Under the pieces are notes generated by a model. That model had not been told where the DNA came from. It was given only the letters and a program-made list of their open reading frames with translations, and did not search any database. Both the position numbers and the translations under genes were made by a program. A DNA stretch of 64,000 nt, taken from the NCBI GenBank assembly GCA_036397555.1, contig DASWIS010000031.1:144052-208051 (forward strand), read 5' to 3'. How positions within the stretch are numbered: position 1 is the first letter of the stretch; each line of letters starts with the position of its first letter. Shown piece after piece: positions 3,026 through 16,564 of this stretch. Source of the DNA: Candidatus Zixiibacteriota bacterium. GTDB taxonomy: Bacteria > Zixibacteria > MSB-5A5 > WJJR01.

Positions 3026-4192
3026 ATGAACAGACGCGCAAGGGCAGTATCCTGTGAACGGACTCCCTGGAGTATGTTGCTGCTGATCGCCCTCGGAATC
3101 GTGGCGGCGGGAGTATTGCTGGGATGTCAGGGATCGGATGGCGATGGGGCCACGGGATCGCTGCAACCGAACGCCGAATCCGCGGCCCGCTTCGGCGGAT
3201 TCCGGATGGCGCCTCCATCTCTGGAGCAAGTGAAGTCGGCCGTCGCGCTCACCGAAGACCAGACCGCGAGGATGGCCGTGGCGCTCGGCGACTGGGATGA
3301 GGCAATTGCGCGCCGTCAGGAAGAAAGGCGGGCCTCACGCGCGGAGGACCAGCGTGGTCGCGCATGGCCTGGTGATCGCAGCTTCTCCCGGCAGCCGATG
3401 CCGCAATTCCTGTTGGCGGCGTCCGATGTTCTCACCGTCGAACAGTTCGTCGCGTTGACCGAACTGTTGGCGGCGCAAAAGGAAGATCGAGCGCAAACGC
3501 GCCGCAGCGCACTCGACAAAAAGCGGGATCGCATCCAACGATCGCAGGAGGATTCTCGACCGCGCGGCGAACGGATTCTCGGTGAGTTCTCCGAGACCCT
3601 GAATTTGAGCGAGATGCAGCAAAACGACATTGAACAGGCGTTCGCGGCGATGCGCGAGCAGATGCGCGCGCTGCGTGAAGCCCGCCGGTCCGACTGGCGC
3701 GATACGCGCGAAGAGTCCCGTACGACCCGCGAGGCGCTCGATGCGCGCATCCGCGAAATCCTCACCGATGAGCAGTATCGGCAATTGGAGGAATCACGAT
3801 CACAACGCCGGGACGAGCGACGGCAACAAATCGAATCCTTCCGTCGGGACCGTCTCAGTGACCGCCTTGAGTTTCTCACCGAAATTCTGGATCTGAACAC
3901 GGATCAATTGCAGCAGGTGCGTTCCATTCTCACGCGGGCCGATGCCGAACGCACCGGCCTCTGGCAGCCCGGTCGTGGGAAAGTTGACGATCGGGCGGTC
4001 AGGCGCGAGGCATTCGACGCCGTCCGCGACCGTGCCAATGAACAGATTCGCGACGTCCTCTCAGCCGAGCAGGAGGTGGTGTATCAGGCATTGAGAAACC
4101 TCGAACCGGAAGGCCGCGGGCCGCGCTTTCAGGGCGCACCGCAGGCCGCACCATCCGGGGGGAATGGCCGACAGACCGGCATGGTCGGCTGA
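3026..4192 (+). CDS. Spy/CpxP/ZraP-like LTxxQ-repeat lipoprotein
   Basis: Predicted lipoprotein of 388 residues. A basic N-terminus and hydrophobic segment (about 17-33) end in the lipobox LLGC with Cys34. The mature part is highly charged, helical and rich in Arg, Glu and Gln, with six motifs of the LTxxQ type: LTEDQ (75), LTVEQ (136), LNLSEMQ (192), LTDEQ (246), LNTDQ (290) and LSAEQ (345). Spy, CpxP and ZraP are small periplasmic chaperones or metal-binding stress proteins with two such motifs. This protein looks like a fused, membrane-anchored multi-repeat version. The start was chosen because GGAGG lies 7 bases upstream; an ATG at 3008 lacks such a site. It is probably expressed from the sigma-54 promoter and cotranscribed with the next lipoprotein gene. 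Confidence 0.85.
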   Translation: MNRRARAVSCERTPWSMLLLIALGIVAAGVLLGCQGSDGDGATGSLQPNAESAARFGGFRMAPPSLEQVKSAVALTEDQTARMAVALGDWDEAIARRQEERRASRAEDQRGRAWPGDRSFSRQPMPQFLLAASDVLTVEQFVALTELLAAQKEDRAQTRRSALDKKRDRIQRSQEDSRPRGERILGEFSETLNLSEMQQNDIEQAFAAMREQMRALREARRSDWRDTREESRTTREALDARIREILTDEQYRQLEESRSQRRDERRQQIESFRRDRLSDRLEFLTEILDLNTDQLQQVRSILTRADAERTGLWQPGRGKVDDRAVRREAFDAVRDRANEQIRDVLSAEQEVVYQALRNLEPEGRGPRFQGAPQAAPSGGNGRQTGMVG

Positions 4193-14647: not shown

Positions 14648-15187
14648 ATGCGCGTCGCAAGCACGTTAATCGGAGGAATGCTGATGGCCACTGCCGTAAC
14701 TGCCCACGCTGCCGACACTCTGAAAGTCGGCGCCGCCGCGCCCGACTTCACGCTCCCCTACGCGACCAAAGACACCATCGCGCAGGAGCCGTTGACGCTC
14801 TCGTTGGAGGCGAAGAAGGGGCCAATCCTCTTAGCGTTCTATCCTGCCGACTGGAGCGGCGGCTGCACCAGGGAACTCTGTTCGTTCCGCGATGACTTCG
14901 GGCAGTTCGCCGAACTCGGCGTCCGCATTTGGGGAATTTCCGGCGACTATGTTTACTCGCATCACGAGTGGGCCAAGCACCACAATCTGCCGTTTGAATT
15001 GCTCGCCGATCACGACCACACGGTCGGCAAGCTCTACAACTCCTACAATCCCGAGTACGGCCAGAACCGGCGCGCAGTCTACGTCATCGGCTCCGATGGC
15101 AAGATCGCCTTCGCCAAGCCCGTCTACAGTGTCCGGACTCCCGATGACTATGAGGAACTGAAGAAGGCACTCGCCGCGCTCAAGTAG
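14648..15187 (+). CDS. Peroxiredoxin/TSA-family thiol peroxidase, probably exported
   Basis: Thioredoxin-fold peroxidase of 179 residues related to AhpC/Bcp. A putative signal peptide (residues 1-22, ending AHAA) precedes the domain, which opens with VGAAAPDFTLP. The peroxidatic site is WSGGCTREL, with a second cysteine four residues later (CTRELC), as in atypical 2-Cys Bcp enzymes. Another in-frame ATG at 14684 has GGAGGA at good spacing. That start would remove most of the signal and leave a cytoplasmic enzyme, so location depends on which start is used. It stands alone after the transhydrogenase operon. Confidence 0.85.
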   Translation: MRVASTLIGGMLMATAVTAHAADTLKVGAAAPDFTLPYATKDTIAQEPLTLSLEAKKGPILLAFYPADWSGGCTRELCSFRDDFGQFAELGVRIWGISGDYVYSHHEWAKHHNLPFELLADHDHTVGKLYNSYNPEYGQNRRAVYVIGSDGKIAFAKPVYSVRTPDDYEELKKALAALK

Positions 15188-15433: not shown

Positions 15434-15472
15434 GAACAAAACAAGGGCCGGAGAATGAACCTCCGGCCCTTG
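15434..15472 (-). terminator. Terminator of the cysteine-rich operon
   Basis: A 12-base perfect stem (CAAGGGCCGGAG with CTCCGGCCCTTG) and a seven-base loop, followed on the minus strand by TTTTGTT. It lies 45 bases after the cysteine-ladder gene. Confidence 0.88.
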
Positions 15473-15517
15473 CCGCAGATCCCCCCGCTTTGGGGGAGTT
15501 CCTGCTCGACGACTCAG

Positions 15518-15871
15518 CTACTTCGCCGCGGGCTGTGAGACTGCGACCTGCACGGCATCCGCAGATGATCCCGCTTTGGTCTTCTCGCAGCAGACCACCG
15601 CACAGGTCTGCGTCTTGGCTTCAGTGCTCGGTGCAACGGCAGCCGCTGTCTTCGTCACCGCACACTTTTCCCTGCAATCGTCCGGACAGGGTAAAGGGCA
15701 AGGGTCGGGACAAGGCACGGGGCATTCCATCAGGCACGTTTGCGCGCATGCCTCGCTGGACTTGACCATCTTGCAGGACGCTGGATTGCCGGCCGCGACC
15801 ACCGCCGTTGCGATGAACAAGAGCGCGACCAGCGCGATTCCGGTCGCGATGAAAGTCAGATTCTTCCGCAT
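15518..15871 (-). CDS. Exported small protein with a four-residue cysteine ladder (CPxP repeats)
   Basis: I do not recognise this 117-residue protein. An N-terminal signal or anchor (about 5-27) precedes a cysteine-rich stretch. Eight cysteines sit at exactly every fourth residue: 42, 46, 50, 54, 58, 62, 66 and 70. The middle reads CPVPCPDPCPLPCPDDC. Cys33 and a CAVVCC cluster (90, 94, 95) add four more. The tail is Ala/Lys/Thr-rich. Such spacing suggests metal binding or a disulfide/thiol scaffold outside the cytoplasm, which is inference. The start has AGGAG 6 bases upstream; a longer reading from 15973 has no such site and would overlap the previous gene. It follows a second cysteine-rich gene and ends at a strong terminator. 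Confidence 0.8.
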   Translation of the reverse strand: MRKNLTFIATGIALVALLFIATAVVAAGNPASCKMVKSSEACAQTCLMECPVPCPDPCPLPCPDDCREKCAVTKTAAAVAPSTEAKTQTCAVVCCEKTKAGSSADAVQVAVSQPAAK

Positions 15872-15969
15872 GTTGTTTCTCCTTTTGATCCACGTGTCGA
15901 TCGTAGTCATCTGAAGTGCGTCCACAGACGACAGCTCTGTACAACCAGTTTGTCGGGAGAAACTGAATC

Positions 15970-16527
15970 TCAAATCAGGAAAGAGCAGACACGAATGCAG
16001 ATGTCTCGTCCCGATTCCGAAAGAATCGGCTCGGTCGGCCGATGGTCATGACTACTTCGTCGCAGCGCGTTGGCAAACTGCAATTGCTCGCTGCTGCTCG
16101 AGTTCGGAGTGGTTGGATCCCTGTCCGGTCGTTCGGCAATGCTGGGGATTCGCTCGGCCAGCACACGTCCCGGCAGGCAGATCCAGCATTCATCCCACCC
16201 AAACGGGCACCCGTTTTCGTCGAGAGGGCAACCGTCCGTATCGGTATTACAGGCATCAGCAGGCAAACACGCGACATCCGCAAGACTGCAGCCGCCCTGA
16301 GGTTCCGGGGTGCGCTCAGCGGCTGTCGCACAACATCCGATCTCCTCGACCACGCACTCAACGACACCGCCCAGCGACGGGCCGCAGACGCACATCATTT
16401 CCACCATGTCGCCGCTTCCGGGCATGGGGCATCGCGCACGGCACAGCACAAACGGACCCGGCGCGGTCTGAAAGGCAATCACGATCAGCCCGACCGTTGC
16501 CGCCAGCGCCGCACGAATGAGTCGCAT
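15970..16527 (-). CDS. Cysteine-rich exported protein, function unknown
   Basis: Unrecognised protein of 185 residues. It begins with a basic, hydrophobic signal-like segment (about 1-22). It has 16 cysteines, mostly between residues 29 and 117, in pairs and clusters such as CVC (46-48), CC (65-66), CPLDENGC (100-107) and CWIC (114-117). CWIC is a CxxC motif of the thiol-redox kind. The C-terminal 65 residues are polar and probably disordered, ending in a last Cys pair (176, 181). The ATG at 16527 has no ribosome site but lies six bases after a possible -10 box, so the message may be leaderless; a start at 16557 is the alternative. It is upstream of, and probably cotranscribed with, the cysteine-ladder gene. 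Confidence 0.65.
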   Translation of the reverse strand: MRLIRAALAATVGLIVIAFQTAPGPFVLCRARCPMPGSGDMVEMMCVCGPSLGGVVECVVEEIGCCATAAERTPEPQGGCSLADVACLPADACNTDTDGCPLDENGCPFGWDECWICLPGRVLAERIPSIAERPDRDPTTPNSSSSEQLQFANALRRSSHDHRPTEPILSESGRDICIRVCSFLI

Positions 16528-16533
16528 GATCTG

Positions 16534-16564
16534 CTTATACGTCTTCGGGATACCCATGTGTCAA
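16534..16564 (-). promoter_or_regulatory. Possible promoter of the cysteine-rich operon
   Basis: On the minus strand, TTGACA (16564-16559) and TATAAG (16539-16534) are separated by 19 bases, longer than ideal. Transcription would begin close to the ATG at 16527. Confidence 0.4.

Follow-up and report, generated by a model that had tools for sequence, protein, structure and literature searches.

The window, that is, the whole stretch of 64,000 nucleotides analysed here, holds two small genes on the reverse strand between the genes for tRNA-Ala and SRP RNA. The full order is peroxiredoxin (+), tRNA-Ala (+), ladder gene (-), partner gene (-), SRP RNA (+) and dnaX (+), where the ladder gene is the one whose product carries a regular series of cysteines. 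The features to which we refer are the following:

14648-15187 (+): peroxiredoxin gene of the AhpC/TSA type (Pfam, E = 3.6e-32) with a signal-like N-terminal stretch, convergent with the ladder gene
15440-15474 (-): strong hairpin followed by TTTTGTT, 3' of the ladder gene, the likely terminator of the two-gene unit (z = -5.8, 91-nt stretch)
15518-15871 (-): ladder gene, encoding a cysteine-rich protein of 117 aa, exported as judged by inspection
15590-15607 (-): second small cysteine cluster, CAVVCC (C89, C93, C94)
15662-15748 (-): cysteine ladder, C42 to C70, eight cysteines at +4
15791-15871 (-): signal peptide, residues 1-27, proposed cleavage after VVAA (by inspection; the N-terminus resembles that of the G003 homologue)
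15879-15883 (-): AGGAG ribosome-binding site of the ladder gene
15970-16527 (-): partner gene, encoding a cysteine-rich, leader-like protein, exported as judged by inspection, of 185 aa if translation starts at the ATG at 16527, or of 195 aa from an in-frame ATG further upstream at 16557
16033-16050 (-): HDHRPT in the partner, at the position of HxH[AS]PP in relatives, 44 residues after the CxxC as counted to the H of HRPT
16177-16188 (-): CxxC of the partner (CWIC)

Translation places the cysteines of the ladder protein at residues 33, 42, 46, 50, 54, 58, 62, 66, 70, 89, 93 and 94. A sequence-only reading of this locus had described eight cysteines, 42 to 70, at an exact spacing of four residues, with CPxP units in the middle of the series, in a small exported protein. 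The translation bears out the spacing and the units (CPVP, CPDP and CPLP), and adds C89-C93 as a further +4 pair. Export is supported as well, for the N-terminus reads by inspection as a Sec-type signal ending in VVAA before GN. The start codon is credible, given the AGGAG, the basic N-terminus, the hydrophobic stretch and the VVAA-GN junction; the sequence that precedes the ATG at 15871, AAAAGGAGAAACAAC, is a good ribosome-binding site. Removal of the signal peptide would leave about 90 residues, which include all 12 cysteines.

The spacing is far above chance expectation. The pattern of four cysteine codons TGY-N9 is expected 0.10 times in the window under dinucleotide shuffles and occurs five times, always inside the ladder gene, and when the residues of the mature protein were shuffled 20,000 times, no shuffle gave eight gaps of four or a run of seven. 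Since Tandem Repeats Finder reports no DNA tandem repeat under the ladder gene of the window, the +4 register does not stem from a recent DNA duplication.

The first impression was that the ladder protein is an orphan: similarity searches with this protein alone gave nothing convincing, only weak matches with E from 0.002 to 0.004. A DNA pattern based on the cysteine spacing then recovered its true relatives. Across the phylum, seven TGY codons at 12-nt spacing yielded two protein-like matches, in G002 and G005, plus many simple-repeat artefacts. Both of these ladder genes adjoin dnaX, as does that of the window, and the dnaX-side locus of family members yielded ladder genes in G002, G003, G004 and G005, whose products resemble the window protein at the N-terminus (NLT...AAGN.PA.CKM; for one pair, the window and G003, BLASTP gives E = 2e-8). 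Profile searches added G001, G007, G008, G123 and G060, which represent three further families of the class. The ladder gene is therefore present in ten genomes of Candidatus Zixibacteria (the window, G001, G002, G003, G004, G005, G007, G008, G060 and G123), and G039 has a similar gene pair with looser cysteine spacing. No copy was found in the PLSDB plasmid collection.

Several candidates were set aside. Most other pattern matches (for example, L006-L028) are simple repeats of the CTG/CAG type read in the cysteine frame and were discarded, and L002-L005 were dropped because they have no cysteine ladder. We make no claim for G324 and G327, from outside the phylum, which offer a simple repeat and a short exported protein without a partner, respectively, or for G054 (L083), where a protein with CPYM and CPMH motifs has no partner that we could find.

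Comparison of the homologues separates what is conserved in the ladder from what is not. The filler between the cysteines differs wholly, with CPVPCPDPCPLPCPDDC in the window, CKAECKDKCRAECKDKC in G002, CTTECKEKCKSGDMSKCTAECKDKC in G003 and CRDVCPPECVVIC in G004; relatives have runs such as CKAECKDKC against CPDPCPLPC in the window. Over ten proteins, a set that includes G039 and leaves out G005 as a near copy of G003, 59 of 130 cysteine-to-cysteine gaps are exactly 4, and much of the remainder in close relatives is 8. The sequence-only reading had made conservation of the spacing among homologues a test of its observation. In close relatives, where gaps are mostly 4 or 8, the spacing is kept; in distant ones it drifts, to mixtures of 3 and 4 in G007, of 4, 5 and 6 in G060, and of 3, 4 and 5 in G039.

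These comparisons also bear on the two shapes that had been suggested for the chain. The proposed proline rod does not generalise: in most homologues the 4/8 spacing persists with a filler of K, E, D and A and few prolines, so that the CPxP run is peculiar to the window copy and the spacing is the conserved feature. The other suggestion, a helix with the thiols along one face, fails on geometry. In an alpha-helix, positions four residues apart drift by about 40 degrees at each step, so eight cysteines would wind round the helix rather than line a single face; in the window protein, moreover, CPxPCPxP argues against a helix at that point. The two AF2 models, whose mean pLDDT is 54.7 and 52.8, are too uncertain to be informative.

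In the close pair G003 and G005, the dN/dS of the ladder gene is about 0.21 and all 14 of the cysteine codons compared are retained. This one close pair shows purifying selection on the ladder gene. It might nevertheless be supposed that the ladder is low-complexity drift, produced by slippage of a 12- or 24-bp repeat and serving no particular function. A 24-bp tandem array does underlie the G002 ladder and illustrates how a series of this kind can arise, and the loosened spacing of G007, G060 and G039 would suit that account too. But the register holds in the window copy, which has no underlying DNA repeat, the G003/G005 pair retains its cysteine codons at low dN/dS, and the partner is constant in ten genomes; we therefore regard drift as very improbable. 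The ladder proteins form a real, selected and undescribed family. The earlier statement that no known family has this pattern stands: none of the ten homologues matches Pfam, NCBIfam gives sub-threshold scores only, and no PDB relative was found by sequence, the weak match to Ole e 6 having E = 4.8. Searches of the literature for cysteine-rich proteins of Zixibacteria or for CxxxC repeats found nothing under those terms.

The partner gene, which the sequence-only reading did not mention, is the more informative find and the best lead to function. It lies directly upstream of the ladder gene on the same strand in all ten genomes, at a distance of 69-98 nt in the four genomes measured; in the window, the RNA fold of the intergenic stretch is not unusual (z = 0.14). 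The partner proteins are cysteine-rich and 148-201 aa long, with a hydrophobic N-terminus in all nine members of alignment A5 (by inspection), and the partner dN/dS for G003 against G005 is 0.21. Seven relatives from the order to which the window belongs (G001, G002, G003, G004, G005, G007 and G008, where the CxxC of G007 is the aligned one at 116) have a CxxC, exactly 44 residues, H[AS]PP, and exactly 20 further residues, usually ending in CSFLL. The partner in the window retains the 44-residue spacing but has HRPT instead of H[AS]PP, and the layout was not seen in the partner of G060.

This arrangement resembles that of leader proteins that sense copper during their own synthesis and control the next gene, namely CruR of Bordetella, with CXXC, 45 residues and RAPP, and CutF of Rhodobacter, with a CxxxC 45 residues from a C-terminal motif. 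Like leaders of the CruR/CutF/DUF2946 kind, the partner has a cysteine motif that precedes a proline motif by about 45 residues, and the first place in a same-strand pair; by inspection, its hydrophobic N-terminus may also be an export signal. HAPP has been listed as a RAPP-like arrest motif, although most tested proteins with RAPP-like motifs failed to stall (PMC10987492). Unlike those leaders, the partner proteins have H[AS]PP for RAPP, most have a conserved 20-residue tail after the motif, and the gene downstream encodes a cysteine-ladder protein. The partner, to judge from its sequence, is thus laid out like a CutF/CruR leader. We do not claim membership, because it matches no Pfam model, DUF2946 included, and falls outside the published leader filters: these ask for a length under 150 aa and a proline motif no more than 15 residues from the C-terminus, whereas the partners span 148-201 aa and their motif mostly lies about 20 residues from the end. 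Neither ladder nor partner is covered by a described protein family.

The unit is not present throughout the family of the window. In G006, a genome of that family that is 93% complete, the SRP RNA and tRNA-Ala genes lie 98 nt apart with nothing between them (L047, 4481-4915), and neither the ladder nor the partner profile matched anywhere in the genome. The two-gene unit is therefore dispensable, having been lost in G006 or gained in the other genomes.

What might an exported ladder of thiols do? We consider the chances roughly even that the ladder protein is exported to buffer a soft metal, for example Cu(I), with its thiolates; here we infer both the binding and the metal. Paired CxxxC units would hold soft ions, Cu(I) being the most likely, as the CXXXC units of copper storage proteins do. 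The chain would probably remain unfolded until loaded with metal, which would account for a spacing that is kept amid freely changing filler. Aliphatic and aromatic residues number only 0-4 in the cysteine spans of six of the ten homologues, a composition that suits a chain dependent on metal or disulfides for its fold. The spans of the window protein (63 residues, 10 hydrophobics), G001, G004 and G039 hold 8-10 such residues, which counts against the metal buffer.

Disulfides, then, are the competing use for these thiols. The protein could be a structural one in which CxxxC disulfides, within or between chains, staple a rigid or cross-linked envelope component that involves no metal. Such a protein might be likened to the twin-CX3C helical hairpins known from the literature or to the proline/cysteine repeats of the cornified envelope, and it would suit an exported, cysteine-rich chain with CPxP repeats in its window form; the weak PDB match, Ole e 6, is itself a cysteine-rich pollen protein. 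Searches of the genome of the window for DsbA-family and VKOR-family proteins found none, however, and within the scope of those two families this makes catalysed disulfides less likely and free or metal-bound thiols likelier. CPMH in G002 and CPH in G001 point in the same direction. An upstream leader resembling CutF and CruR also fits metal better, and we consider the disulfide-stapled protein unlikely. Thus, when the sequence-only reading held that the thiols could either bind metal or stack disulfides, its first option remains plausible and its second is weakened.

Comparison with known systems helps to place the thiolate buffer. Metallothioneins resemble the ladder protein in being small and cysteine-rich with few hydrophobic residues (true of six of the ten ladder homologues, the window copy with its 10 being outside them). 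Metallothioneins use CxC, CxxC and CC, whereas in the ladder CxxxC is dominant, there is an export signal, and no match to the metallothionein family model was found. Twin-CX3C helical hairpins, such as the small TIMs and the alpha-hairpinins, share CX3C units with the ladder. They consist of two disulfide-bonded CX3C units with a loop between, a layout absent from the ladder, where up to eight cysteines stand in an unbroken +4 series; this difference, too, weighs against a disulfide staple. The copper storage proteins Csp1 and Csp3 have many cysteines, some exported members, and CXXXC units, also present here, that bind Cu(I) on a single helix in Csp3 (PMC5171941). But Csps are helical bundles with a cysteine core, and the ladder proteins, which by sequence have no Pfam match or PDB relative, have few hydrophobics in many members; the window copy is proline-rich and so unable to form a helical Csp site.

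Two further roles were considered. The AhpC/TSA-type peroxiredoxin is a conserved neighbour of the unit in G002, G003, G004 and G005, as in the window, and the ladder might be an extracytoplasmic redox buffer or oxidant sink whose thiols are sacrificed or cycle with this exported enzyme. But the peroxiredoxin gene converges on the ladder gene with tRNA-Ala between them, it is not seen beside the unit in genomes outside the family (as far as ORF starts tell), and a sink has no need of exact spacing. We judge this role improbable. The ladder could instead be a metal chaperone that hands one ion to a specific enzyme, a role suggested by the copper chaperones and transporters that often follow CutF/CruR-like leaders (PMC9973294, PMC9426467). 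At least 11 cysteines per chain exceed the needs of one site, however, and no cuproenzyme gene was recognised beside the unit from ORF starts, so that a chaperone, too, has a slim chance of being the right description.

Returning to the thiolate buffer, we ask what the partner would add. The first gene would encode a CruR/CutF-like exported leader with CxxC, 44 residues, H[AS]PP and a 20-residue tail, and this leader might plausibly respond to the metal that the ladder binds, while itself being exported, and so adjust expression of the ladder gene. The two genes would then constitute a previously undescribed metal module of Zixibacteria, in which a long, cysteine-rich nascent-chain sensor of the HAPP type controls a new class of exported thiol-ladder buffer, with selection acting on the +4 spacing and not on fold or filler; we offer this tentatively, as a possible but somewhat doubtful whole in which we infer regulation by the leader and metal-driven folding. 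Against this reading stand the HRPT of the window partner, the unremarkable intergenic RNA fold in the window and the neighbouring genes: judged by ORF starts, none beside the unit is a metal gene in the window, G007, G008, G060 or G123.

If the module is real, it matters in several respects. Known bacterial examples of exported proteins that store metal in bulk are few. Cysteine spacing that is kept across proline-rich and charged fillers would mean that a regular thiol geometry can be selected by itself. The CruR/CutF idea, that metal is sensed during synthesis and export, would extend to another phylum, with a leader layout that published filters would have excluded.

Some minor observations concern individual sequences. 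In G005 (L050), the ladder ORF departs from that of G003 after about residue 100 (near position 3690) and extends for about 100 aa more, either because the stop codon was lost or because the assembly is wrong here. In G074 C25, L021 (about 87888-88034, -) is a long, degenerate array built from 12-nt units with TGY, of the CNC and CKC type; it has an in-frame TAG and is therefore likely a non-coding repeat. L091 of G324 (1501-1977, +) encodes an array of the type CQARCQGRC, with cysteines at +4 over about 20 units and GARHGAKDGAK in another frame, and is probably a simple repeat. L083 of G054 (1295-2122, +) encodes an exported-looking protein of 275 aa with CPYM, CPMH and CxxxC motifs and no Pfam match, possibly another metal-related cysteine protein. 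Finally, L092 of G327 (1459-1803, +), from outside the phylum, encodes an exported-looking protein of 114 aa with CTPEQMAKCTPEEAAKCVAKC and cysteine spacings of 8, 8 and 4, which could be an analogue of the ladder protein.
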